Source of the DNA: a virus
IMG/VR virus record: IMGVR_UViG_3300042893_001924
Span: 1 to 21,631 of that record
Length of the DNA: 21,631 bases
Strand: one strand, 5' to 3'
Every line of letters starts with the position of its first letter. Within the stretch, counting starts at the first letter, position 1. Below, in pieces: positions 1 through 19,337 of the stretch. The position numbers and the translations under genes were made by a program. Under the pieces are notes generated by a model. The model had not been told where the DNA came from. It searched no databases and was given only the letters and a program-made list of their open reading frames with translations.

Positions 1-1151
1 CTAGATCTGACCTCCGGAAGAAAGTTATGTCTGCTGAAGAAGTGTTCAAATCAGGCATACTTAAGGAACGAACAGACACTGGTCGTATCTATCTAGTGTT
101 CATTGACAATGTGATGAATCAAGGACCATTTGATCCTGAGTATCACACCATTTACCAGAGTAACCTTTGCTGTGAAATTCTTCTTCCTACTAAACCCTTT
201 AAACGTCTGGATGACAGCGATGGTCGTATTGCACTATGCACCTTGGGCTCAATCAATTGGGGTGCGTTCCGCAATCCAGAAGACATGCGCCGTGCTTGCC
301 GTATATTGCAGCGTAGCCTGTGCAACATTCTTGACTATCAAGATTTTCTCTCCATCCAGTCTAAACTCTCAAATGACGAGATCCAACCCCTGGGCATCGG
401 AATCACCAACCTTGCCTACTGGCATGCCAAGCGCAGCCTCCAATACGGAGAATCAGACGCCTTGGCTGAAGTCAAGACGTGGATGGAACACCAAGCCTAC
501 TACCTGACCGAAGCCACCGTTGAGCTGGCCAAGGAGCGTGGTCCATGTAAAGATTCTCACCGTACCTGGTATGGTAAAGGTGTATTTCCTTGGGAACGAA
601 GAGCTGTTGGGGTTAACGAACTTGTAAATTTTGCACCGGAACTAGACTGGGAACCACTACGAGCACTCATGAAAGAACATGGCGTGCGCAATGCCACACT
701 GATGGCAGTGGCACCTGTGGAATCAAGTTCTGTAGTGATCAACTCAACCAATGGCATTGAAATGCCCATGAGCCTAATTACTGTGAAAGAATCCAAAGCC
801 GGTTCACTCACACAAGTTGTTCCTGAGTATCATAAACTCAAAAACAAGTACCAATTAATGTGGGCGCAAAAAGACTGCATCGGCTATTTGAAAACCGCGT
901 GTGTGTTGGCTGCTTATATTGATCAGTCAATCTCTACCAACACATTCTACAATCCAGCGCACTGGCCTGATCGCAAGGTGCCTACCACACTAATTGCTCG
1001 CAACCTAATGCAGGCACACTATTGGGGGCTCAAAACATTCTACTACAGTCTTATCAACAAGGCTGGATCAAAACAAACTGCCGAAGCGGCACCTCTTGAA
1101 GTCATTGACTTTGATCTCGAGGGTGAAGACTGCGAAGCTTGCAAGTTATGA
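1..1151 (+). CDS. nrdA: Ribonucleoside-diphosphate reductase alpha subunit (class Ia), 3' part
   Basis: Large subunit of aerobic class Ia RNR, which reduces NDPs to dNDPs together with NrdB. The frame is open from base 3, and the residues before the first in-frame ATG (27) still align with E. coli NrdA, so the gene is cut by the window edge; ATG 27 is internal. Visible landmarks: ERTDTGRIY; NLCCE, giving the active-site Asn, the thiyl-radical Cys and Glu (bases about 162-176); ALCTL with the second redox Cys (about 237); the radical-transfer tyrosine pair in KTFYY; and a C-terminal CEACKL tail whose CxxC is the shuttle pair re-reduced by glutaredoxin or thioredoxin. About half of the protein is present. 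The stop overlaps the next start (ATGA). Unlike E. coli, nrdB does not follow directly: six enzyme or unknown genes intervene. Family assignment is certain. Confidence 0.97.
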   Translation, partial: RSDLRKKVMSAEEVFKSGILKERTDTGRIYLVFIDNVMNQGPFDPEYHTIYQSNLCCEILLPTKPFKRLDDSDGRIALCTLGSINWGAFRNPEDMRRACRILQRSLCNILDYQDFLSIQSKLSNDEIQPLGIGITNLAYWHAKRSLQYGESDALAEVKTWMEHQAYYLTEATVELAKERGPCKDSHRTWYGKGVFPWERRAVGVNELVNFAPELDWEPLRALMKEHGVRNATLMAVAPVESSSVVINSTNGIEMPMSLITVKESKAGSLTQVVPEYHKLKNKYQLMWAQKDCIGYLKTACVLAAYIDQSISTNTFYNPAHWPDRKVPTTLIARNLMQAHYWGLKTFYYSLINKAGSKQTAEAAPLEVIDFDLEGEDCEACKL

Positions 1152-1345
1152 ACAGCATAGAAAAAATCTGGGCCCGGGCCACCGGGCACTTGATGGGTGA
1201 GAGTGATCATGACCGTCCGGATGTGCCTATTCTCACTTTGCGAGAAGCCCGAATGGCCTTGTTTTTCAAAACGTTTTGGGTTATAATACACGTTGTGACC
1301 TGTGGTTTCATCATAGCCAACACAATAAGACACTGGAATAGTTAA
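1148..1345 (+). CDS. Small membrane protein, unknown function
   Basis: 65 residues from the ATG that overlaps the nrdA stop (ATGA), chosen over a TTG three codons upstream because of this coupling. A charged N-terminal half (about residues 1-38, rich in D, E and R) is followed by one hydrophobic segment (about 39-60, FFKTFWVIIHVVTCGF and onward) and a short basic end IRHWNS. This predicts a single-span protein with unknown topology. From memory, T4-like cyanophages carry similar small proteins ending in a membrane span plus IRHW, but no function is known to me. It is probably cotranscribed with nrdA. A promoter-like sequence with a palindrome lies inside its 3' half. Confidence 0.75.
   Translation: MNSIEKIWARATGHLMGESDHDRPDVPILTLREARMALFFKTFWVIIHVVTCGFIIANTIRHWNS
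1259..1287 (+). promoter_or_regulatory. Possible sigma70-type promoter with palindromic spacer
   Basis: TTGTTT (1259-1264), a 17-base spacer, then TATAAT (1282-1287), predicting transcription from about 1294, ahead of the gene at 1347. The spacer contains the perfect 12-base palindrome CAAAACGTTTTG (1267-1278), placed as an operator would be. The -35 box matches consensus at only three of six positions, and the site lies inside a coding sequence, so this is tentative. If real, it would let the enzyme run 1347-5640 be expressed separately from nrdA. Confidence 0.35.
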
Positions 1346-1346
1346 A

Positions 1347-1940
1347 ATGAAACAACCACATTGTTTTGTAATTACACATAGTACGTCTCGAGTTTTTACG
1401 GACTGTGCAAATAGTTTACAAAAATATCATTGGAACTTCACCGCGGTTGATGCCACAGATGGGTGGAAGTTAACTGAGCAATCTTGGAATGACATTGACG
1501 TTAAGATAGCCGAAATAGGTAAAATGAAACGCAGACCAGGGGCGCAAGGTTGTTGGTTCAGTCATTGGCACTTGTGGCAACAATGCATCACAACCAATTC
1601 TCCAATGGTTATTATGGAACATGATGCTTTGGTCTTAGAAACTTGGCCGGAAGATTTAGTAATTGATGATAAAATTATCAAACTGTATTCCACAGCAGAT
1701 TGCAAAAGAAAACAAGGACTGGGATTATACAGTATAGGATCACATGCTTATACTATAACTCCAGCACAAGCACATCTCATTGTGAATTTTGTTCGCAAGA
1801 AGGGTGCTGTACCAGTAGACAAACAACTGTCAAGTGCAGTAGTTCCCTGGCAGTTTTATTCAAGTGACCTTGTAGTATTACACCCTAAAAGAGGCAAAAG
1901 CACTACACGCCATAAGACACTGGAACAATTAACATGTTAG
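1347..1940 (+). CDS. Glycosyltransferase family 25-like protein
   Basis: 197 residues, a probable GT-A fold sugar transferase of the LPS-biosynthesis type (GT25, as in Lex2B/LgtB-like enzymes). Visible landmarks: an N-terminal strand followed by THSTSR; a D(A)TDGW stretch near 35-40; the family motif GCWFSHWHLW (68-77), matching the usual GC..SH..lw; and VIMEHDALV (88-96), corresponding to the metal-binding E-D-D signature but with EHD. A C-terminal GSHAYTITPAQA matches the family's conserved g..aY.is...A region. It is slightly shorter than typical members (about 230-260). There is only a weak ribosome site before ATG 1347. Its last bases overlap the start of the aldolase gene. The acceptor could be host LPS or a phage product; the sequence does not decide. 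Confidence 0.8.
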   Translation: MKQPHCFVITHSTSRVFTDCANSLQKYHWNFTAVDATDGWKLTEQSWNDIDVKIAEIGKMKRRPGAQGCWFSHWHLWQQCITTNSPMVIMEHDALVLETWPEDLVIDDKIIKLYSTADCKRKQGLGLYSIGSHAYTITPAQAHLIVNFVRKKGAVPVDKQLSSAVVPWQFYSSDLVVLHPKRGKSTTRHKTLEQLTC

Positions 1941-2584
1941 AAACCTGTTGTGATATATTGGTAGATGCGTACAAGCGTAATTGGATAACCAGTAGAGATG
2001 GCAATATCTCTATTCGTCATCACGACCGTGATCACTTTTATATCACACCATCAGGTGTACGCAAGCAGACACTACAGCCGGACCAGTTTAAAAAGATTCG
2101 ATTGGTTGATCAAGTCAATCCTATTCCTCCATTTTTAACAAAGTCCTGGCAAGAAGAATACTACACTGATATCAGTGCTAATTTAACGCCCAGCGGTGAA
2201 CTTCCTCTGCACTTCGGCCTGCAAAAAGAAATGGGACAGCACTCAAACGATGTTAGAGTTGTTGTTCATGTGCATCCAACCTATTGTATTGCAGCCATGC
2301 ATGCTGGCATTGATCTAAGTACTATCAGCAATGCATTTCCAGAACTCAATCGCTATACCCGAGTAGCACCCAATGTAGGAGATGTAGCACCTATCAGTCA
2401 AGAACTTGCTGATGCATGTCATAGTAATTTGGGTCTGGATCAAGCAGGCAATATCAAGTTTGATATTGTGGGGATCAAAGGTCACGGAGTTGTGGCAATT
2501 GATGTCACACCCTGGCGTGCCTATGAGCACATTGAAAGATTAGAACACATTTGCAAGATTGTACTTGCATCAGGAAAATATTAA
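1934..2584 (+). CDS. Class II aldolase/adducin-family protein
   Basis: 216 residues resembling L-fuculose-1-phosphate aldolase, L-ribulose-5-phosphate 4-epimerase and MtnB-type dehydratases. Motifs in order: DGNISIR (22-28), TPSG (38-41), PSGELPLH (86-92) with the likely catalytic Glu89, VVHVHPTY (110-117) giving zinc ligands His112 and His114, and IKGHGVVAI with the third zinc His184. All residues needed for a zinc-dependent retro-aldol or epimerase reaction are present. The substrate is unknown but is probably a phosphorylated ketose or related C4-C6 sugar. It overlaps the upstream glycosyltransferase gene by 7 bases and ends directly at the next gene. A class II aldolase is unusual phage cargo; with the neighbouring enzymes it implies sugar-derived small-molecule chemistry. 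MtnB seems less likely because the SGE motif and spacing fit aldolases better. Confidence 0.88.
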   Translation: MLETCCDILVDAYKRNWITSRDGNISIRHHDRDHFYITPSGVRKQTLQPDQFKKIRLVDQVNPIPPFLTKSWQEEYYTDISANLTPSGELPLHFGLQKEMGQHSNDVRVVVHVHPTYCIAAMHAGIDLSTISNAFPELNRYTRVAPNVGDVAPISQELADACHSNLGLDQAGNIKFDIVGIKGHGVVAIDVTPWRAYEHIERLEHICKIVLASGKY

Positions 2585-3220
2585 ATGAGCTACATTGTAG
2601 GATCTCTTCCACCGATCAAATGCTTTGTCAAAAGAGAATTTCTCTATAACTTTGAAAAAGGGCACGGAGAATTAGAACCTGCAATATGGGTCAGCCTCAA
2701 AGCCCTGCGGGGACAAGTGTTTCGCATTGAATCACTGTTGCCCAATTACGGTGCTCTTTACGACAAGTTGCCTATCCATGCCTATGTGTGGCAAGAAAAT
2801 CACACAGGTAACCTGCCCATAGACACCTTGCAACTTTGGGACTGCATGGGCTATCGCTTTACTATCATTGAAAAAATAGGCTTGCGTAATCTAGGTGTGA
2901 AGTTTCTAGGTAAAGATAAAGAATGGCATTACGGAACTTATTTGTTCACTGTGGACTTTTGTGCTGATGGCATGGATGTGGATACAGGATTTACTGAGGT
3001 TGCCGAAGAGCACAAGAGCTTTAACTTTATCCGTTTGGAAAATGGTCAGTTTGCTTGCCAACCCAACAACCGATGCTTGTGGTACGATCAAAGTTTGATT
3101 TCAGGCACAGTAAAATTTCCAGACTTTAAAGCAGCCCAAACCATATTCACAGTGGATGGCACACGCAAGTGGTCAGCAGGAGATGATTGGTTTTACACCA
3201 TAGAAGAAAAAAATGAATAA
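2585..3220 (+). CDS. Conserved phage protein of unknown function
   Basis: 211 residues beginning immediately after the aldolase stop. Features: an N-terminal SLPPIKCFVKREFLYN, an acidic and aromatic-rich body, W-rich patches (WVSLKAL, YVWQENHTG, LQLWDCMGYRF), and a mixed beta-strand pattern with no signal peptide or membrane segment. I recall similar hypothetical proteins in marine T4-like phages (an opening like LPPv.CFVRrEyLYn and a YGALYDKLP block), so it may be an older phage gene rather than part of the imported enzyme set. The function is not recognised. Its last 8 bases overlap the aminotransferase start, so the two are probably translationally coupled. Confidence 0.8.
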   Translation: MSYIVGSLPPIKCFVKREFLYNFEKGHGELEPAIWVSLKALRGQVFRIESLLPNYGALYDKLPIHAYVWQENHTGNLPIDTLQLWDCMGYRFTIIEKIGLRNLGVKFLGKDKEWHYGTYLFTVDFCADGMDVDTGFTEVAEEHKSFNFIRLENGQFACQPNNRCLWYDQSLISGTVKFPDFKAAQTIFTVDGTRKWSAGDDWFYTIEEKNE

Positions 3221-4088
3221 TAGTAATTTTCCTGCTTGGCAAAATGGTAAATTTTGTCAAGTCGGCGATCTAAGCATCGGTGTCCAGGATCTTGGACTGC
3301 TGCGTTCTTACGGCGTGTATGATGTGATTAGTATTAAAAACAATCGAGCATTGGTCATTGATCAACATATCACTCGTTTTTTACAAGGTTGCAAGTACTA
3401 CTACATCAATGTAGACCGCACTGTTGATGAACTTGTTCAGATTGTAAAGGAAATAAATGCGCAGGTTACAGAAGACATGCATGTTTGGTTGGTTGCCACT
3501 CGAGGTGAACCTTCTTCGTATGACATACGTGACATCATAAAAACAAAACCTCAATTGATGATGGTTTCAGGACCATATACATCAGTCAGCCCAGACCGAG
3601 CAATGAAGTTATGTATTGCTAGAAAAGTTTGTCGCATTCCGGATTCATCAATCAACCAGTCCTACAAAAACTTTGCCAGACAAGATTTTACTATGGCGCA
3701 AATTGAAGCAACCATGCGAGGTTTTGACAATCCTGTGTTGTTGGATCATGATGGTATGCTTACAGAAGGTCCACAGTTTAGCGTGGCAATTATAAAGGAT
3801 GGCTGTGTGTTATCGCCTGCTAGGAATCGCTTGCCGGGCATTACCATGCAGTTAGTTAATACCCTATGTCAAGAACATAGCATTAAATTTGAATACTGCA
3901 ACATCAGCGAAGAATTACTAAACACAGCTGATGATGCATTTGCAACTACCACTGCTGGGGGAGTAATTCCCATTGCATCCATAGACCACAAGCAATTTGT
4001 AGAAACTGAATTGCAACAGCAAATTCAAAGTCTATACCAACAGGCGTGGGACCAGGACAAGTACTCTCTCAATTTTCTATGTTCATAG
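3213..4088 (+). CDS. Class IV PLP-dependent aminotransferase
   Basis: 291 residues of the fold-type IV PLP family (branched-chain aminotransferase, D-amino-acid transaminase, aminodeoxychorismate lyase). Landmarks: the early SIGVQDLGLLRSYGVYD segment matching the family's D.g..yGdgvfe start; HITRFLQG (52-59) with the PLP-phosphate Arg55; SYKNFARQD with the Schiff-base Lys152; LTEGPQFSV with Glu185, which contacts the PLP pyridine nitrogen; LPGITMQLV (the family's GitR motif, with Met for Arg); and ATTTAGGVIPI supplying phosphate-binding threonines. The Lys-Glu spacing of 33 fits the family. At about 290 residues its length is typical of DAAT/ADCL-type members. Sequence alone does not fix the substrate. 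It overlaps genes on both sides, so it belongs to the same operon. Confidence 0.9.
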   Translation: MNNSNFPAWQNGKFCQVGDLSIGVQDLGLLRSYGVYDVISIKNNRALVIDQHITRFLQGCKYYYINVDRTVDELVQIVKEINAQVTEDMHVWLVATRGEPSSYDIRDIIKTKPQLMMVSGPYTSVSPDRAMKLCIARKVCRIPDSSINQSYKNFARQDFTMAQIEATMRGFDNPVLLDHDGMLTEGPQFSVAIIKDGCVLSPARNRLPGITMQLVNTLCQEHSIKFEYCNISEELLNTADDAFATTTAGGVIPIASIDHKQFVETELQQQIQSLYQQAWDQDKYSLNFLCS

Positions 4089-4522
4089 TTTATTTGTTAT
4101 TATGGACATTTATGATATATTGGATTCATCGCATGGCACACCATGTGCCGGGAATCCGACGTATACACATGGGTCATCACAAGTTTATTGCAACCAATCC
4201 TCCACCAAATTGGCATTGGACCAATTTGTTTTTGTACCAAGACAATTGGATTTCTACAGCTGATGTGTGGATAACAGAAATAATTCCAACAATAATTTTT
4301 TGCTGGCTTACTGACACTTGGTGGCTGGCGGGATTGTTCTATCTATGGCAAGCATTGATACAAGAAAGACTAGAACACAATCCCAACTTTGATGGATATC
4401 CGTTATTCACTTGCGGCCAATGGCACATGATGCATCATTACTTTCAGGGTCGCTGTAACTATGGAATCTTTGTTCCAATTTGGGACATGGTTTTTAACAG
4501 TTTTCGGCGGCACCCAACATGA
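4079..4522 (+). CDS. Fatty acid hydroxylase/sterol desaturase-superfamily membrane enzyme
   Basis: 147 residues from ATG 4079; a GTG at 4046 would extend deep into the previous gene, so the ATG is preferred. The protein carries the histidine clusters of membrane di-iron oxygenases: H17-x3-H21-H22, H30-x2-H33-H34 (HMGHH), H100 in LEHNP, and H116-x2-H119-H120 (HMMHH). Hydrophobic segments lie at about 2-16 and 68-95. Known relatives use O2 to hydroxylate lipids, sterols or carotenoids in the membrane. It is short for the family (often 200-300) but keeps the whole histidine set, so it is probably complete and active. It overlaps the aminotransferase gene by 10 bases and the ATP-grasp gene by 4. 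A lipid-type substrate is plausible but unproven. Confidence 0.87.
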   Translation: MFIVYLLLWTFMIYWIHRMAHHVPGIRRIHMGHHKFIATNPPPNWHWTNLFLYQDNWISTADVWITEIIPTIIFCWLTDTWWLAGLFYLWQALIQERLEHNPNFDGYPLFTCGQWHMMHHYFQGRCNYGIFVPIWDMVFNSFRRHPT

Positions 4523-5640
4523 AATTGCTATGGTCTGTGGCTGCCCCACACGTGATGCAATCGGTTGCAAACACAATTGCATCTGGGCATGATGTAGAAA
4601 TAATTTTGCCCGGTTGGATCATTGACCCAACCACTGTCAGCACAGGCAATGCCACAGTGCATGTTGTTGCCAATCCCAGTGACTTATTAACTGCGTTAGA
4701 TCAAATATTGTCAAGCAACCAATTTGATTATTTGGTACCATCATTTCCTGATGCAATGACTGAACAAATAGCAGAAATATGTCAGCGACATAAAGTTGCG
4801 TTTGTCGGCAAATCCACAGCGCGGATGTTGAGTAGCAAATACAACTACTATAGACTGTGGAAAGCATTGTCAATACCAGTGCCAGACATTTATAGTGAAA
4901 TAACACAAGTTACGCTACCTTGCATTGTGAAACCCTATCGCGGCCAGGCCAGTATTGGAGTTAAAATTTTAACCAATGCCAGTGAACTAGCTGAATTCTT
5001 TTCAACTGATGAATACATTGTGCAACAATACATACCTGGCAACATTGTGTCGTTTGTGGGCACAGTTGTGGATGGATGTATTGACATTGACCTGTGCTAT
5101 GACATCGAAAGTGATGCTTTTCCGTATGTGCCAGAAACTGGGTTGAGTTTTCCAAGTAAATACAGTTTCCTACAACAACCAGTAACGGATCATTTGCAAC
5201 GATTTTTTGATGTTGCCCAGTTAAACAATGTTCCGTTCATGCTTGATGTTGTGGTTGATGCAGACGGTCAGTTTTATTTTATAGATTTTGCCGCAAGGCT
5301 ATCCATGGGCGGACTTTTGTTGATGCCATATGGTGGCGAAGAAAATTACGTAAGCAAAATGCTGTCAAGAATGCATCAAGAACAATTTGTTATAAATTTA
5401 ACTGGCGCAGTTTTGTTTAGGCAATTGGGATTGCCATGCGGAGACATCAAAGAGATTTCCTGCAAGAATTCCGAATTAGCTGCCAAGTTAGAGTTACCAA
5501 AACAAGTTGTTGTGGCTGATCATGACAATTGTGTTTATCCTAACGGATATGCAATTGTTGTTGGAGATAACCGTGATGAAGTTGAAGATAAATTTAGGAA
5601 ATGCATTGACAGTATCAGTGTTGAGTATTACAATACATGA
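4519..5640 (+). CDS. ATP-grasp family carboxylate-amine/thiol ligase
   Basis: 373 residues. An N-terminal Rossmann-like pre-ATP-grasp domain (about 1-95, with DYLVPSFPDA) is followed by the ATP-grasp core. The core shows SSKYNYYRLW; IVKPYRGQASIGV, whose Lys binds ATP phosphates above a Gly-rich loop; YIVQQYIPG, the hinge contacting adenine; MLDVVVDADG; and YFIDFAARLSMGG, which supplies metal-binding acidic and Arg residues in the place of the family's E.NpR.gG. A C-terminal lobe resembles carbamoyl-phosphate/biotin-carboxylase-type ligases. Such enzymes join a carboxylate to an amine or thiol through an acyl-phosphate. The start overlaps the hydroxylase stop (ATGA). It is the last gene of the island; a 37-base gap precedes nrdB. 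The substrate is unknown. Confidence 0.87.
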   Translation: MKLLWSVAAPHVMQSVANTIASGHDVEIILPGWIIDPTTVSTGNATVHVVANPSDLLTALDQILSSNQFDYLVPSFPDAMTEQIAEICQRHKVAFVGKSTARMLSSKYNYYRLWKALSIPVPDIYSEITQVTLPCIVKPYRGQASIGVKILTNASELAEFFSTDEYIVQQYIPGNIVSFVGTVVDGCIDIDLCYDIESDAFPYVPETGLSFPSKYSFLQQPVTDHLQRFFDVAQLNNVPFMLDVVVDADGQFYFIDFAARLSMGGLLLMPYGGEENYVSKMLSRMHQEQFVINLTGAVLFRQLGLPCGDIKEISCKNSELAAKLELPKQVVVADHDNCVYPNGYAIVVGDNRDEVEDKFRKCIDSISVEYYNT

Positions 5641-5677: not shown

Positions 5678-6778
5678 ATGAGCCAAGCACAATACAATCT
5701 CGCTACCAAAACAGACTATCTACATCGCAAGATGTTTTTGGATCCTGCTGGTCCTGTAACCATTCAGCGATTTGAAGAAGTCAAATACAACAAACTGGCC
5801 AAGTACGAACAAGAAGCTCGTGGTTTCTTTTGGGTGCCAGAAGAAATTTCATTGAGCAAGGATGCTAATGACTTTAAAGAAGCATCAGACACAGTCAAAC
5901 ATATCTTTACCAGTAATCTCTTGCGCCAAACAGCACTAGACAGCTTGCAAGGCCGTGGACCAGCACAGGTGTTTACTCCTGTAGTGAGCATTCCAGAACT
6001 GGAAGCACTAATGTACAACTGGAGTTTCTTTGAAACCAACATTCATAGCCGCAGTTACAGTCACATCATTCGTAACATCTACAATGTGCCCAAGGATGTG
6101 TTTAGCACCATCCACGACACCAAAGAGATTGTGGACATGGCATCAAGTGTGGGTCGCTATTACGATCACTTGCACATGGTCAATTGTGAAAAAGAACTGG
6201 AAGTTCCTGTCAAGGATCACGGCCATGTCAAAGCTATTTGGATGGCACTCAATGCAAGCTATGCATTGGAAGCATTCCGCTTTATGGTATCCTTTGCTAC
6301 TAGTTTAGCAATGGTAGAGAACAAGATCTTCATTGGCAACGGCAACATCATTCAGTTGATTCTACAAGATGAAATCCTGCACAAGGAATGGACTGCTTGG
6401 ATTATCAACCAAGTGGTGAAAGAAGACCCTCGCTTTGCTCAAGCCAAAGCAGAGTGCGAAGCCGAAGTGTATCAGTTATACTTGGATGTGATCCGTGAAG
6501 AAAAAGAGTGGGCAGACTACTTGTTCAACAAAGGTCCGGTGATTGGCCTTAACGCACAGATCTTGAAAGACTTTGTGGATTACACAGCAGCCAATGCACT
6601 GAAAGAAATTGGCCTCAAGTACCAAGAGCCTGCACCACGCTCTACACCTATCCCGTGGTTCAACAAGCACGTGGACACCAGCAAGAAACAAACTGCCCTG
6701 CAGGAAAACGAATCAACCAACTATGTTATTGGCGTGATGAGTGATGCTATCGACTACGACGAGTTACCAAACTTATGA
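5678..6778 (+). CDS. nrdB: Ribonucleoside-diphosphate reductase beta subunit (class Ia)
   Basis: 366 residues, the radical-generating small RNR subunit. Motifs: GFFWVPEEI; LDSLQGR with iron ligand Asp88; FFETNIHSRSY with Glu119, His123 and the radical Tyr127; YALEAFRF with Glu198; DEILHKE with Glu232 and His235. The C-terminal acidic tail (IDYDELPNL) is the peptide that docks into NrdA. All ligands are present, but Glu119 and His123 are four residues apart, whereas E. coli (Glu115, His118) has three; the Asp88-Glu119 spacing (31) is unchanged, so one residue (T or N) has been inserted between the two ligands. ATG 5678 has only a weak upstream AGGAC. It overlaps the next gene by 4 bases. Its partner nrdA lies 4.5 kb upstream, split off by the enzyme island. 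Confidence 0.96.
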   Translation: MSQAQYNLATKTDYLHRKMFLDPAGPVTIQRFEEVKYNKLAKYEQEARGFFWVPEEISLSKDANDFKEASDTVKHIFTSNLLRQTALDSLQGRGPAQVFTPVVSIPELEALMYNWSFFETNIHSRSYSHIIRNIYNVPKDVFSTIHDTKEIVDMASSVGRYYDHLHMVNCEKELEVPVKDHGHVKAIWMALNASYALEAFRFMVSFATSLAMVENKIFIGNGNIIQLILQDEILHKEWTAWIINQVVKEDPRFAQAKAECEAEVYQLYLDVIREEKEWADYLFNKGPVIGLNAQILKDFVDYTAANALKEIGLKYQEPAPRSTPIPWFNKHVDTSKKQTALQENESTNYVIGVMSDAIDYDELPNL

Positions 6779-12903: not shown

Positions 12904-14259
12904 ATGTGGAAACTTGTAATCCCTGCACTAGCAGTGGCTCTAACAGGATGTGGTGGAGGCAGTGGCAGTGGCAGTTCCGGCAATAGCACGCCAGCCACTT
13001 CTATACTTGTGGCAGCTGGCACAATATCAACTGTCAGTAACTTTATACCTAGTCTAGCTGCCGGCAATTTTGACAATACTGGTGATAGCTATGTTATAGT
13101 CAGTGGTTGGTTAGCCAACAGCTCACCAACATCTACAGTTAAAATTTATCGATTGTCTGGCACTGGCCCGAGGCCTCAATGGGGCACAGGCACAATTACA
13201 GATGCCACTGCTGATGTGTTAGGCAGTGAGTTTGCTTGGTCAGTTAATTATCCGCAAGTAGCCGACTTCAATCGAGACGGCATTGATGACATTTTTTTTC
13301 CGGGATTTACTGACGGTCCTAACTTGTCCCAAAATAATGCATCAGTGGTTTTTTTAAGCAGAGCCGGACAAAGCCATAAACGAGTGGACTTGGCTGGGCT
13401 TACTTGGAATCACGGAACCACTGTGCTGGACGCCAATCAAGATGGTTGGTTGGATGTGATCAACAGCAATGGTGAAATGTGGATAAACACACAGGCAGAT
13501 GGATTTACCTATCGAGCTAAAGATACTTTTCGCACTATCAAACATCCTCTTGCTGGTGCCGGAGTGTGTGCAGGAGACTTAGATGGATCTGGTGACACAC
13601 AAGTGGTGCTAACTGACCAAACAGGACTTCAAGCCAGTCAATTGATCTACAAGTTAAACGCCAATATGGAGCCTATCTATCAGGGTGCATTGCCAGTGCC
13701 GTATTTTGACAAAAATAATACTGATGCCACAGTGAATCGAAGTCATGATGTAAGCTGTCAGATTGTGGATGTGAATGGCGACGGACGGCAGGATGTTGTG
13801 GTGATCAGTTATCTTCATGACAATACAGTGACCAGAACAATTGGTGCTCAAAGCATGGTTCAAATCTACTACAATCTTGGTGGTTATGTGTTTAGTGATG
13901 CAACAGACGTCAGCATGTCAGGATATAACCAAGGTGCCGTGGCTAGTTATACTCCTAAAATTGTAGACTTCAATGGTGATGGGCATGCAGACATTTGGTT
14001 GATGAATACCAACCGTGCAGAAAGCGGCAATCAAGTTTGGCTAAATGATGGCACAGGAAAATTCAAACAAAGCCGCAAGCAAGACTTCAACACCCTGACC
14101 AGCCTACATGCTGTGTTAAACAGTGTAGAATCCAATACTAGTGGTATCATGTTGCCAGTGCAGATTAACGACAAATGGAATTTTATTATAGCCACAGTGT
14201 CTGGAATTAAGAACACAGTATACGTGGCGTATGCTAGAACACAATGGAGTTTTCAATGA
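12904..14259 (+). CDS. Phage-encoded lipoprotein with FG-GAP/VCBS-type calcium-binding repeats
   Basis: 451 residues, ATG with AGGAG (12892-12896). A signal peptide (about 1-15, MWKLVIPALAVA) ends in lipobox LTGC with the acylated Cys16, followed by a Gly/Ser linker (17-28). Gly at +2 favours sorting to the outer membrane. The body has five calcium-loop repeats of D-x-N-x-D-G type: DFNRDGIDD (121), DANQDGWLD (176), DLDGSGDTQ (225), DVNGDGRQD (289), DFNGDGHAD (355), spaced about 50-65 residues, fitting an integrin-like beta-propeller. Phages rarely encode lipoproteins; known ones (T5 Llp) block receptor proteins after infection. Superinfection exclusion or cell-surface adhesion are the best guesses. 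It sits among small conserved phage genes, with ATGA overlap to the next. Confidence 0.88.
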   Translation: MWKLVIPALAVALTGCGGGSGSGSSGNSTPATSILVAAGTISTVSNFIPSLAAGNFDNTGDSYVIVSGWLANSSPTSTVKIYRLSGTGPRPQWGTGTITDATADVLGSEFAWSVNYPQVADFNRDGIDDIFFPGFTDGPNLSQNNASVVFLSRAGQSHKRVDLAGLTWNHGTTVLDANQDGWLDVINSNGEMWINTQADGFTYRAKDTFRTIKHPLAGAGVCAGDLDGSGDTQVVLTDQTGLQASQLIYKLNANMEPIYQGALPVPYFDKNNTDATVNRSHDVSCQIVDVNGDGRQDVVVISYLHDNTVTRTIGAQSMVQIYYNLGGYVFSDATDVSMSGYNQGAVASYTPKIVDFNGDGHADIWLMNTNRAESGNQVWLNDGTGKFKQSRKQDFNTLTSLHAVLNSVESNTSGIMLPVQINDKWNFIIATVSGIKNTVYVAYARTQWSFQ

Positions 14260-15257: not shown

Positions 15258-16754
15258 ATGATATTTGGATTTGCAATTCTCGCCACCGCATTACTCTTAA
15301 GCGCCGTAGCAGCCTGGTACTCAGTAGCAGGCCTTACTGCGATATTCTCAGCGGCCACAATACCTGTGATCATCATGGGTGGCTCATTAGAACTGGGCAA
15401 AATTGTTGCCACTGTATGGTTGCACAACAACTGGCGCCGTGCCGGTATTGTGTTCAAGCTGTATTTGATACCAGCCATAGCATTCTTGATGATCTTGACC
15501 AGCATGGGTATCTTTGGATATCTTTCAAAGGCACACTCAGATCAAAGCCTGGTGTCAGGAGACGTTGTTGGCAAGATTGCAATATATGATGAAAAGATCA
15601 AAACAGAAAGAGAGAATATAGATGCTAATCGCAAAGCACTCAAACAGCTTGATGAATCAGTGGACCAAGTTATGGGTCGCAGTTCGGATGAAAAGGGCGC
15701 AGAAAAAGCCGTTGCCATTCGAAGAGCCCAGCAGAAAGAACGTGGTCGCCTCGCTCAGGACATTGCAGACTCTCAGAAAAGAATCGCTGGGCTCAATGAA
15801 GAACGTGCGCCGATTGCCGCTGAGGTTAGGAAAGTTGAGGCGGAAGTAGGCCCAATAAAATACATTGCAGCTCTAATGTATGGGGACAATCCAGATGCCA
15901 ATTTATTAGAACGAGCAGTGCGTTGGATGATCATAATGATTGTGCTGGTGTTTGACCCACTAGCACTTACACTTATTTTAGCATCCAACAAACAGTTTGA
16001 ATGGGCACGACAAGGCACAGGCGGTTTTGTGCATGACGAACCCAAGTACGAACCTGACGATGGCCCACTTACCGAACAACAGCTAGAACAGATCCAAGCC
16101 AGTGCTGAATTACCCAAGGATCCACATCCGCCAGGGTGGATGTTTGATAAGAAAGAAGATGAACGACCATGGAATGAACGCTATCCTTATTTGACTTGGC
16201 CGTTTGTGCATTTTGAAAATCTCAAGCCCATAGTGGCTCCTGATCCTGTTAAAGAAGATCAAGCGGCAATGGCTATTGTTCCCCCAGAAGAAATGCCTGG
16301 TGTGGAAATCCGTCCTTGGACTGCGGAAGAAATTGAAGCGTTAAATGCAGACGACGTTGCTGACAAAGAAGCTATTCGTCGTTGGAAGTTAGACCACCCA
16401 GATGAAACTATCAAAGGCCAAAGAAGCAAGTTAGCTCGAGGGCAGATTGCTCAATTGCCTTGGACTGATCCCAAATACACACAATCAAGTTTTGGAAACC
16501 AGTTTCCATTAACACCCAATCGTGGCGACACCTTTGTAAAAACTGATCGCATGCCTCCACAGTTGTACAAATTCAACGGAGACGAGTGGATTATTATTGA
16601 CAAAAACTCTACAGATAACTATACTTACGACACAGCATACATTGATCATCTCATAGATAAGATTGCTACCGGTGAGTATGATCCAGATTTGTTGAGTGAT
16701 ACTGAGAGAGAACAAGTAGCAGAACGTCTTAAACAAACCAATACCAACGCATGA
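15258..16754 (+). CDS. Multi-span membrane protein with periplasmic or cytoplasmic coiled coil
   Basis: 498 residues. Hydrophobic segments at about 2-22, 26-45 and 68-90, then a charged coiled-coil region (about 105-205, rich in K, E, R and Q, including ERENIDANRKALKQLDES and the QQKERGRLAQDI area), then another span or hairpin at about 222-245 (RWMIIMIVLVFDPLALTLIL). A long acidic and proline-rich soluble tail follows, with a compact C-terminal part containing GDTFVKTD, LYKFNGDEWIIID, YIDHLIDKI and DLLSDTEREQV. I recall the same arrangement as a conserved unknown in marine T4-like phages. The role could be envelope remodelling or lysis control, but nothing in the sequence proves it. It overlaps clpX in ATGA, so the two are translationally coupled. 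Confidence 0.85.
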   Translation: MIFGFAILATALLLSAVAAWYSVAGLTAIFSAATIPVIIMGGSLELGKIVATVWLHNNWRRAGIVFKLYLIPAIAFLMILTSMGIFGYLSKAHSDQSLVSGDVVGKIAIYDEKIKTERENIDANRKALKQLDESVDQVMGRSSDEKGAEKAVAIRRAQQKERGRLAQDIADSQKRIAGLNEERAPIAAEVRKVEAEVGPIKYIAALMYGDNPDANLLERAVRWMIIMIVLVFDPLALTLILASNKQFEWARQGTGGFVHDEPKYEPDDGPLTEQQLEQIQASAELPKDPHPPGWMFDKKEDERPWNERYPYLTWPFVHFENLKPIVAPDPVKEDQAAMAIVPPEEMPGVEIRPWTAEEIEALNADDVADKEAIRRWKLDHPDETIKGQRSKLARGQIAQLPWTDPKYTQSSFGNQFPLTPNRGDTFVKTDRMPPQLYKFNGDEWIIIDKNSTDNYTYDTAYIDHLIDKIATGEYDPDLLSDTEREQVAERLKQTNTNA

Positions 16755-17986
16755 AACAATCTGAAAATTTAGATAATTGCAGTTTTTGTCACAAACACAA
16801 GGATGCAGTGGTTAAATTGATAGTAGGCGAAGATGTCGCTATCTGTAACGAATGTGTGGAACTTTGCCAAACTCTTTTGGTAGACGAACACATACTCACT
16901 CCTGTAGCGCAGACTATTAGTCTTGATCCGAGAGCTATTTTAAAACATCTTGACCAATATGTTATAGGACAAGATCGAGCCAAGATGGTATTGAGTGTGG
17001 CCATTGCCAACCACTACAAGCGCATACGCAACCAGGACAAAAATACCGAAATTGAAAAAGCCAATATTCTTATGTTGGGCCCTACAGGGTCAGGCAAAAC
17101 ATTGTTGGCACGATCAGTAGCAAGATACTTGGATGTGCCTTTTGTAATTGCTGATGCAACCAGTTTAACTGAAGCAGGTTATGTAGGTGATGATGTTGAA
17201 AGTTTGATTTCACGACTGTATGCAGCCTCGGGCAATGATGTCGAAAAGACACAACGTGGTATTGTGTTTGTGGACGAGATAGACAAAATCAGTCGGCGCT
17301 CAGAAAGTCAAAGCATCACAAGAGATGTATCTGGCGAGGGTGTGCAACAGGCCTTGCTCAAGTTAGTAGAAGGCACCAAATGTAGAATCACACCCACTGG
17401 TGGCCGCAAACATCCCAATGGCGAAACTGTGGAAATTGACACCACCAACATTTTGTTTATTGCTGGTGGTGCGTTTGTGGGTCTAGATAATATTGTGAAG
17501 AATCGCATTCGTGGCACATCTATTGGATTTCAAGCTGAAGTGTCAGTAGACCGTGCTGGCGACCTTGATCAAGTAACACCCGATGACTTGGTTAGATTCG
17601 GTATGATTCCAGAGTTTGTGGGTCGCTTCCCCAGCTGGGTTGCCTTAAACGAACTTGCGTTAGAAGATTTGATATTGATTTTGACAGAAATCAAACACAG
17701 TTATGTAGAACAATATCAGTGGCTGTTTGCACAAGATCACATTAATTTGAAATTTGATAAATCTGCACTAGAACAAGTGGCCAAAAACACACTAAAAAAC
17801 AAAACAGGTGCCCGTGGACTTCACAGCGAACTGGAACGTGTGCTACTGCCACACATGTTTAATCTAGCACGTTACAAAGAGCAGGGGGTTGACCAAGTAA
17901 AAATCACCGATGACCTGGTAAATACTCCTACAGAATTAAAGGTGCCCAATGAACAAATTGCGAGGAAGGTCGGTAATAGTCGCTGA
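16751..17986 (+). CDS. clpX: ClpX, AAA+ unfoldase of the ClpXP protease
   Basis: 411 residues, a full-length ClpX (E. coli 424). N-terminal zinc domain with Cys10, Cys13, Cys32 and Cys35; Walker A GPTGSGKT (110-117); pore loop GYVG (143-146); Walker B VFVDEIDK with Asp175-Glu176; RKH loop (219-221); the ClpP-docking IGF loop (258-260, in SIGFQAEV); PEFVGRFP box; and sensor 2 GARGL near the C-terminus. Every element needed to bind adaptors, translocate substrate and dock on ClpP is present. No clpP is seen here, so it would partner with host ClpP, redirecting its substrate choice. Carrying clpX is unusual for a phage. It is coupled to the membrane-protein gene upstream and to bS21 downstream (38-base overlap). 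Confidence 0.97.
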   Translation: MKQSENLDNCSFCHKHKDAVVKLIVGEDVAICNECVELCQTLLVDEHILTPVAQTISLDPRAILKHLDQYVIGQDRAKMVLSVAIANHYKRIRNQDKNTEIEKANILMLGPTGSGKTLLARSVARYLDVPFVIADATSLTEAGYVGDDVESLISRLYAASGNDVEKTQRGIVFVDEIDKISRRSESQSITRDVSGEGVQQALLKLVEGTKCRITPTGGRKHPNGETVEIDTTNILFIAGGAFVGLDNIVKNRIRGTSIGFQAEVSVDRAGDLDQVTPDDLVRFGMIPEFVGRFPSWVALNELALEDLILILTEIKHSYVEQYQWLFAQDHINLKFDKSALEQVAKNTLKNKTGARGLHSELERVLLPHMFNLARYKEQGVDQVKITDDLVNTPTELKVPNEQIARKVGNSR

Positions 17987-18504: not shown

Positions 18505-18957
18505 ATGACAAAAACTCTCACCCTTCGGTCTTTCGACCTTCCCGCACTCACCAAATTTGGTATCGGGTTTGATAACATGTTTGATGAACTCATGCGAGTA
18601 AGTGCTCAACAATCCTCAACAAACTATCCACCCTACAACATTGTGCAAATCAATGAAGATGAGTACATGATTAGTCTTGCTGTGGCTGGCTTTGGATTGG
18701 ATAACCTTTCAGTTACCAAGGACAAAAAGTTCTTGATCATTGAAGGCAAAGAGTATCAACCTGATAGCGAAAAGATCGTGCCAAACTATCTGCACAAAGG
18801 CATCAGCAATAGAGATTTCCGTCGTGAATTCCAACTTGCGGATCACGTGGAAATCAGCAATGCTCACCTTGAACTTGGTATCTTAAGCGTTTACCTAAAG
18901 CGAGAAGTGCCGGAAGACGCCAAGCCAAAGACCATTGCGATCACCTACACTTCCTAA
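18505..18957 (+). CDS. Small heat shock protein Hsp20/IbpA-like
   Basis: 150 residues, ATG with AAAGGAG (18493-18499). N-terminal RSFDLPALTKFGIGFDNMFDEL parallels E. coli IbpA (rnFDLsPLyrsaIGFDrLF), then YPPYNI, the alpha-crystallin domain (about 43-140; EYMISLAVAGFGLDNLSV, FLIIEGKE, YLHKGIS, RDFRREFQLAD, and the G-I-L form of the conserved GVL motif before SVYLKREVPEDAKPK). The protein is an ATP-independent holdase that keeps unfolded proteins refoldable. Hsp20 genes are frequent in T4-like marine phages and may aid virion assembly. Expression appears late, given the TATAAATA box. A perfect hairpin follows. Confidence 0.95.
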   Translation: MTKTLTLRSFDLPALTKFGIGFDNMFDELMRVSAQQSSTNYPPYNIVQINEDEYMISLAVAGFGLDNLSVTKDKKFLIIEGKEYQPDSEKIVPNYLHKGISNRDFRREFQLADHVEISNAHLELGILSVYLKREVPEDAKPKTIAITYTS

Positions 18958-19025: not shown

Positions 19026-19337
19026 ATGGCACAGAGCGATACCCGCACACGAATCAAACCATCAGAGGCCGTAAAAGAGCCACCTATGTTTCGCGTGGTT
19101 TATTTGAACGACAACACAACTTCCATGGAGTTTGTGGTTGAAAGTTTGGTTGAATATTTTGAATACACTCCCGAAACCGCAGAACAAATCACCATTGACA
19201 TTCACGAAGAAGGCTCTGCTTGTGTGGCAGTGTTGCCTTATGAGATTGCCGAGCAAAAAGGTGTTGAAGTTACTGTGAGTGCTAGATCACAAAACTACCC
19301 GCTCCAGATCAAACTGGAACCTGAAACAGTTCAATAA
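19026..19337 (+). CDS. clpS: ClpS adaptor homologue (N-degron recognition)
   Basis: 103 residues, ATG preceded by AAGGAA. Core PPMFRVVYLNDNTTSMEFVVESL matches E. coli ClpS ([23 protein letters not shown]), then YFEYTPETAEQI, IHEEG, and a C-terminal IKLEPE strand. Pocket residues: Asn28, Asp29, Asn30 (E. coli has a second Asp), Thr32, Met34 and His60 present; the position of E. coli Met62 is Thr56. ClpS binds destabilising N-terminal residues and hands proteins to ClpA (not ClpX) for ClpP. A long basic-polar N-terminal tail is kept, needed for delivery. No clpA is in the window, so host ClpA is the implied partner. The altered pocket could change specificity. Its end overlaps the convergent phosphoesterase gene by 7 bases. 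Confidence 0.95.
   Translation: MAQSDTRTRIKPSEAVKEPPMFRVVYLNDNTTSMEFVVESLVEYFEYTPETAEQITIDIHEEGSACVAVLPYEIAEQKGVEVTVSARSQNYPLQIKLEPETVQ

Follow-up and report, generated by a model that had tools for sequence, protein, structure and literature searches.

The 21,631-base virus record analysed here (the window) carries six tightly packed open reading frames (ORFs) between the ribonucleotide reductase (RNR) genes nrdA and nrdB, all on the + strand at positions 1347-5640, which encode a glycosyltransferase (GT), a class II aldolase, a phrog_3704 family protein (gene 3), a class IV aminotransferase, a membrane di-iron hydroxylase-type protein and an ATP-grasp ligase-like protein. Comparison with relatives shows a cassette-exchange slot at the nrdA|nrdB junction of these large T4-superfamily phages, and we consider it likely that the six genes belong to an exchange hotspot for auxiliary metabolic genes in which a dihydroxyacetone phosphate (DHAP)-type aldolase is the selected core and the other genes are add-ons. 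A preliminary description of this DNA had placed the six ORFs correctly; domain searches bear out the identities it gave them, its 'conserved unknown' third gene being phrog_3704, and the catalytic residues that it called intact are intact and conserved across relatives wherever this can be tested. Its suggestion that the genes together form a small biosynthetic pathway is largely contradicted, for they occur apart in relatives and all six stand together in only one of 107 intervals. The candidate products that it put forward are a decoration of lipid or LPS, a peptide-like metabolite and a modification of phage DNA.

The slot is apparent from comparison with related uncultured phages, for which protein scans of IMG/VR yielded 107 distinct complete nrdA-nrdB intervals; the relatives are the best 80 per query, so that all frequencies apply to near relatives, and many of their records are fragments. 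The gap between the two genes ranges from -1 to 4,794 bp, with a median of 1,131, and is larger than 250 bp in 83% of the intervals. Gaps above 250 bp occur at 41% of nrdB|grx and 15% of grx|g97 junctions, which are intermediate, and at 1% of g97|PAAR junctions and 0% of junctions between PAAR and the next gene, which are near-constant, so that variability falls off away from the slot. Xanthomonas phage X1, the closest cultured phage by NrdB (61% identical), has a nearly empty slot, with 144 bp between nrdA and nrdB, and a downstream order similar to that of the window (nrdB, a short ORF, glutaredoxin and later DNA ligase). In Pelagibacter phage HTVC008M the order is nrdA-unknown-phrog_3704-nrdB, and T4-type gp23 was found in four of six long relatives.

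The contents of the slot vary as much as its length. The aldolase is present in 54 of the 107 intervals, a small membrane-like ORF in 42, gene 3 in 28 and the aminotransferase in nine, with ATP-grasp (three), the hydroxylase (two) and the GT (one) rarer still. Among 80 loci picked by NrdB alone, a choice free of bias from cassette content, the aldolase occupies the slot in 20, gene 3 in ten, ATP-grasp in three (two of them truncated), the aminotransferase in two and the GT in none. Other tenants include isocitrate lyase (ICL), superoxide dismutase (SOD), IscA-type and NifU/IscU-type Fe-S assembly proteins, a fatty acid (FA) desaturase, Tim44, an MTS methyltransferase, a radical SAM protein, a D-amino-acid-oxidase-type FAD oxidase (DAO), a Vut_1 transporter, 2-oxoglutarate (2OG) oxygenases and NUMOD1. 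Isocitrate lyase genes were seen in the slots of L007, L039, L056, L079 and L084 (PF00463 was tested for L007), and L128, L129 and L150 combine the aldolase with IscA/IscU-type Fe-S assembly and superoxide dismutase genes.

It is very unlikely that the six genes serve one dedicated pathway, in which a carbonyl product of the aldolase would be aminated, oxidized, ligated by the ATP-grasp enzyme and decorated by the GT. Such a pathway would account for the co-directional, tight and overlapping ORFs (gene-to-gene junctions of -7, 0, -8, -10 and -4 nt), the intact catalytic residues, the complementary chemistries and the joint travel of hydroxylase and ATP-grasp in two phages, but, apart from the GT and the hydroxylase, every gene also turns up in slots that lack most of the remaining five, the four nearest bacterial aminotransferase loci have none of the island partners within ~8 kb, and the GT has an insertion footprint of its own. 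When the same ordered set was sought in other phages and in bacteria, the complete set was found only in the window phage and a near-identical contig, L001, and a set co-inherited across relatives, as in a conserved biosynthetic gene cluster, is not what the single interval in 107 represents. The preliminary description had named separate occurrence without conserved linkage as one outcome that would refute a pathway. Separate occurrence was observed for the aldolase, aminotransferase, ATP-grasp, gene 3 and hydroxylase; absence of linkage was not, since some pairs recur, namely aldolase-gene 3 (three slots), gene 3-aminotransferase (several phages) and hydroxylase-ATP-grasp (two phages). Any pathway is restricted to such sub-pairs of the six genes, and the unusual combination of ordinary chemistry types is explained by a cassette slot. 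The aldolase, the aminotransferase, gene 3 and ATP-grasp show ratios of non-synonymous to synonymous substitution (dN/dS) of 0.04-0.18 in close pairs with usable synonymous divergence, an excess of synonymous change which indicates that these four, at the least, are being maintained.

The manner in which a cassette may enter the slot is illustrated by the GT, which is bracketed by a 25-nt direct repeat whose two copies (Table 1) are identical at 22/25 positions, the best value in 200 dinucleotide shuffles being 19/25. The repeat spans the 3' end of the small membrane-like ORF, which is the cassette insertion point, and the next start codon. In L002 and L098, phages without the GT, it is present once, at the empty site; because it brackets the GT and is single-copy where the GT is missing, it reads as a cassette footprint. 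An unrelated methyltransferase-like cassette without a Pfam match (c2) has the same terminal sequence in L022 and L014, and the position of the repeat at gene ends, together with its presence in two cassettes, suggests short-homology insertion that preserves the close stop/start junctions. These sequences suggest that the GT unit arrived through recombination at short homology at gene ends. The end of an SOD-type cassette loosely resembles the repeat and is not counted as a footprint. A dedicated scan found this GT in one viral contig only, and the cassette is seen in no phage but that of the window and its near-identical contig; the match to Glyco_transf_25 (PF01755) spans half of the profile only, and the acidic motif is EHD. 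The small ORF of ~66 aa, which lies between nrdA and the GT and is missing from the preliminary description, is kept in relatives and matched no Pfam family. It also sits between aldolase/gene 3 and queE in other phages (L142:8647-8838, L202, L211, L237, L242, L246 and L247), making it a second mobile small gene.

The tenant that recurs is the aldolase, which many relatives carry alone. At least 599 viral contig stretches match it, and among 50,697 records of cultured phages it has no close relative, the one match being 24% identical. Two further sites of the aldolase are the ahpC|ahpD and queD|queE junctions, of which the ahp junction is the commoner in the sample studied. The aldolase tree requires at least 20 changes of slot label, where 4 would be the minimum; its support is modest, the bootstrap is not settled and only a few slot changes are firmly forced by well-supported branches. 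A single aldolase copy was found in all 20 long virus records that carry one (drawn from two sets with one record in common), including a 208-kb record in which the aldolase lies in the ahp slot and the phage's own nrdB lies elsewhere. A search by pattern through 84,980 species genomes returned eight bacterial relatives, 74-81% identical and all from Betaproteobacteria/Burkholderiales, several of them from freshwater genera (Limnohabitans, Polynucleobacter). In the tree, bacterial copies form two groups among those of phages. Occurrence in bacteria is sporadic: of 201 genomes from the Limnohabitans family, one had a close copy. Such relatives suggest that the phages infect freshwater Burkholderiales. 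A glutathione reductase-like Pyr_redox_2 disulphide reductase lies beside one bacterial aldolase (L173:5001-7041), and in L176:5001-9701 such a reductase is near the aldolase with a peroxiredoxin-like ORF in between; these redox-gene neighbours echo the phage ahpC-ahpD setting. The gene context of more distant bacterial aldolases, 43-44% identical (L189, L190), shows no recognizable pathway.

On its domain, its residues and its predicted fold the protein is a class II sugar-phosphate aldolase of the FucA/RhaD-like type. Aligned with the T. maritima sugar-phosphate aldolase 1pvt, it retains the catalytic Glu (E89) and the metal-binding His triad (H112/H114/H184), all invariant in 47 sequences. 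In a model of mean pLDDT 70.6, in which confidence is low at residues 39-55 and 80-96, the closest fold is that of L-fuculose-1-phosphate aldolase 2fk5 (Z 17.3, rmsd 3.0, 168 residues); FucA/RhaD structures head the VIA-align matches (Z 15-17, rmsd ~3, ~168 residues), DrdA 6btg at Z 16.5 is a family-level tie with 2fk5, and APIP/MtnB reaches Z 13.0. A divalent metal on the His triad presumably polarizes the ketose while E89 acts as a proton shuttle, and the loops at S40-G41 and S87-G88 are taken to bind phosphate, as is assumed for the family. The substitution pattern indicates strong purifying selection on the aldolase. An assignment as MtnB (methylthioribulose-1-phosphate dehydratase) was rejected, TIGR03328 scoring 45 bits against a cut-off of 137. 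For a possible role in methionine or 5-deoxyribose salvage, neither that MtnB model nor the slot tenants, among which no kinase or isomerase was found, provide a counterpart. The aldolase resembles FucA and DrdA (PMC6079011) in predicted fold, catalytic Glu and His triad and differs from them in its ~18% identity, in scores short of the equivalog cut-off and in an island without a kinase or isomerase partner.

The aldolase is regularly associated with gene 3: of 67 distinct gene-3 loci, 28 have the aldolase immediately upstream, and these are spread over three slots, with the order never reversed. It is possible, if somewhat unlikely, that the aldolase and phrog_3704 act on one metabolite, with the aminotransferase as an optional extender and the rest as unrelated passengers. 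Recurrence of the ordered pair in the nrd, ahp and que slots speaks for such a smaller pathway, as do the five intervals in which gene 3 and the aminotransferase stand together and the strong purifying selection on all three genes. However, gene 3 occurs without the aldolase in many cyanophages and freshwater phages and is alone in the slot of L025, the aldolase lacks gene 3 in 38 of its 54 intervals, and recombination can move adjacent genes jointly without functional coupling. Phrog_3704 is widespread in cyanophages and pelagiphages (114 cultured phage records). Gene 3 had no Pfam match at E up to 1, no NCBIfam match and no PDB match, and its predicted structure, built from 35 sequences, has a mean pLDDT of 40.6. 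The names 'PurM' and 'ferredoxin' given to it in cyanophage entries (e.g. NC_019516.2, KC465899.1) are supported by no domain match and were set aside.

A role in DNA modification, the six-gene set altering bases or sugars of phage DNA, is extremely improbable. It would suit a slot inside the RNR operon and the occurrence of the aldolase between queD and queE, with GTP cyclohydrolase I close by in L142, these being 7-deazaguanine-type genes; yet in this sample the aldolase occupies the peroxide slot, ahpC|ahpD, more often than it does the que slot, it has bacterial chromosomal relatives beside a Pyr_redox_2 disulphide reductase gene and not beside DNA-modification genes, and the six include no enzyme for base modification or nucleotidyl transfer. 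Distinctly unlikely as well is the more specific proposal that the aldolase and phrog_3704 are a mobile two-protein module for an undescribed sugar-phosphate reaction serving DNA precursor supply or redox balance, single-copy and repeatedly re-homed among RNR, peroxide-defence and 7-deazaguanine operons.

The remaining enzymes are narrowly distributed. The aminotransferase matches PF01063 at 120 bits (cut-off 28.5), and its best PDB match is 3wwh, an (R)-amine transaminase (E=3e-39 over 278 residues), with which it shares the PLP lysine in the same motif (Lys152, invariant in eight phage copies); its sequence is clearly divergent from those transaminases, and most nrd intervals lack it. In L006 and L007 it lies beside isocitrate lyase, without the aldolase. 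Neither it nor the hydroxylase had a match in cultured phages. The hydroxylase scores 56 bits against PF04116 (cut-off 31), and its His clusters H17/H21, H30/H33/H34 and H116/H119/H120 are invariant in four sequences down to 53% identity; relatives at 53-54% (L160-L164) lie outside any such cluster, beside an APS-kinase-like gene and without ATP-grasp, and one of these records, L163, has T4-type gp23. In the window phage and L002 the hydroxylase and ATP-grasp genes form a 1.5-kb unit between aminotransferase and nrdB, which is missing from L003-L005 and L096. ATP-grasp scores 33 bits against PF02655 (cut-off 23) and is weakly PylC- or D-Ala-D-Ala-ligase-like (TIGR03909, 36.6 bits against a cut-off of 248 bits); K138, D243, D256 and R260 are conserved in three sequences, the usual Asn metal ligand being replaced by Ala/Gly. 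A stand-alone ATP-grasp, 38% identical, is found in L065, and cultured phages gave one weak match of 61 residues. No match at E<=1e-15 was seen in 398 genomes of the phylum, in a scan that had no positive control and is uninformative.

The exchange-slot reading suggests the following course of events. One- and two-gene units would be gained and lost at stop/start boundaries of neighbouring genes, and each would thereby remain part of the co-directional nrd operon; at least some would enter via short homology at gene ends, as is suggested for the GT and may hold for others, and homing endonucleases using the same slot may assist. The aldolase, often followed by phrog_3704, would be the recurrent selected core, kept at one copy per phage with ahpC|ahpD and queD|queE as alternative homes. 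From its fold and residues it most likely splits a phosphorylated ketose into DHAP and an aldehyde, or makes the ketose from them, as an auxiliary metabolic gene in infection. The aminotransferase, the hydroxylase and ATP-grasp pair and the GT would be add-ons of narrow distribution that probably act independently, each on a small molecule or on the host surface, and the window phage would simply happen to bear a full load of six genes. Several observations weigh against this reading. The window is a 21.6-kb fragment, so that more pathway genes may lie elsewhere in the genome; the non-random linkage of aldolase with gene 3, gene 3 with aminotransferase and hydroxylase with ATP-grasp leaves room for a partial pathway; a clear repeat footprint is present at the GT junction only; just two of the relatives have a homing-endonuclease-like gene, which the window lacks; and the aldolase falls below the cut-off of every NCBIfam equivalog, making its substrate assignment putative.

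The same operon junction takes insertions in T-even phages, in which the homing endonuclease gene mobE lies between nrdA and nrdB and the start of the inserted gene overlaps the nrdA stop, suggesting translational coupling (PMC2988022). Endonuclease-like ORFs are found there in L053 and L072 (the latter tested and NUMOD1-positive), whereas metabolic enzymes predominate among the tenants here, in many cases as tandem runs of several genes, and the slot of the window contains no endonuclease gene. In L072:510-2405 the nrdA match is split, with ~750 bp between the pieces, which suggests an intron or inserted endonuclease, and the NUMOD1 ORF directly follows the split nrdA. Hypervariable islands of T4-like cyano- and pelagimyophages, which lie between modules or in the host recognition cluster of the structural region (PMC7029224), likewise break T4-type core modules with variable auxiliary metabolic genes and glycosyltransferases; the slot described here differs in being a single junction within a core operon. 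Lake Baikal methylotroph phages have a class II aldolase/adducin gene and 'purM' (PMC7678222); the accessible portion of that report describes no slot, family breadth, mobility or pairing, and the gene is likened to the present one by name only. The Baikal mention and the mobE work were all that a search of the literature on nrdA-nrdB hotspots and phage class II aldolases found, preprints being outside that search.

Table 1. Features of the nrdA-nrdB region of the window, with the domain or family matches on which their names are based.
Feature	Position	Strand	Remarks
nrdA, 3' part	27..1151	+	Left border of slot; window holds only the C-terminal 374 aa of NrdA; PF02867 E=1e-60, phrog_84 8e-115
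Small membrane-like protein, ~66 aa	1148..1345	+	Start set by comparison with relatives
Direct repeat, left copy, 25 nt	1325..1349	+	End of small ORF through GT ATG
GT25-like glycosyltransferase, 197 aa	1347..1940	+	PF01755 E=7e-10, residues 22-99 only
Direct repeat, right copy, 25 nt	1912..1936	+	End of GT through aldolase ATG
Class II sugar-phosphate aldolase, 216 aa	1934..2584	+	PF00596 (Aldolase_II) E=3e-26
phrog_3704 family protein (gene 3), 211 aa	2585..3220	+	phrog_3704 E=2e-74
Class IV (fold-IV) aminotransferase	3213..4088	+	PF01063 (Aminotran_4) E=1e-34
Small membrane di-iron hydroxylase-type protein, 147 aa from ATG 4079	4079..4522	+	PF04116 (FA_hydroxylase) E=7e-15
ATP-grasp ligase-like protein, 373 aa	4519..5640	+	PF02655 (ATP-grasp_3) E=6e-8
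nrdB, full-length	5678..6778	+	Right border of slot; PF00268 E=1e-42

Elsewhere in the window a ClpX-like ATPase with a zinc finger, an Hsp20 and a ClpS adaptor are encoded near each other (16751-17986, 18505-18957 and 19026-19337), which suggests phage control of host proteolysis. An ORF at 12904-14259 encodes a lipoprotein-like product with FG-GAP repeats (beta-propeller), unusual for the region.

What is of interest in this locus is the slot and the mobile, single-copy aldolase, and not a six-step pathway; neighbours in such a slot are poor ground for inferring a pathway. The aldolase is very common in phages and has no close relative in cultured ones; conserved, kept at one copy and relocated time and again, it demands a functional explanation. 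A single junction in a core phage operon acts as a loading dock for metabolic genes, to which freshwater T4-type phages could owe some of the patchiness in their auxiliary metabolic genes.

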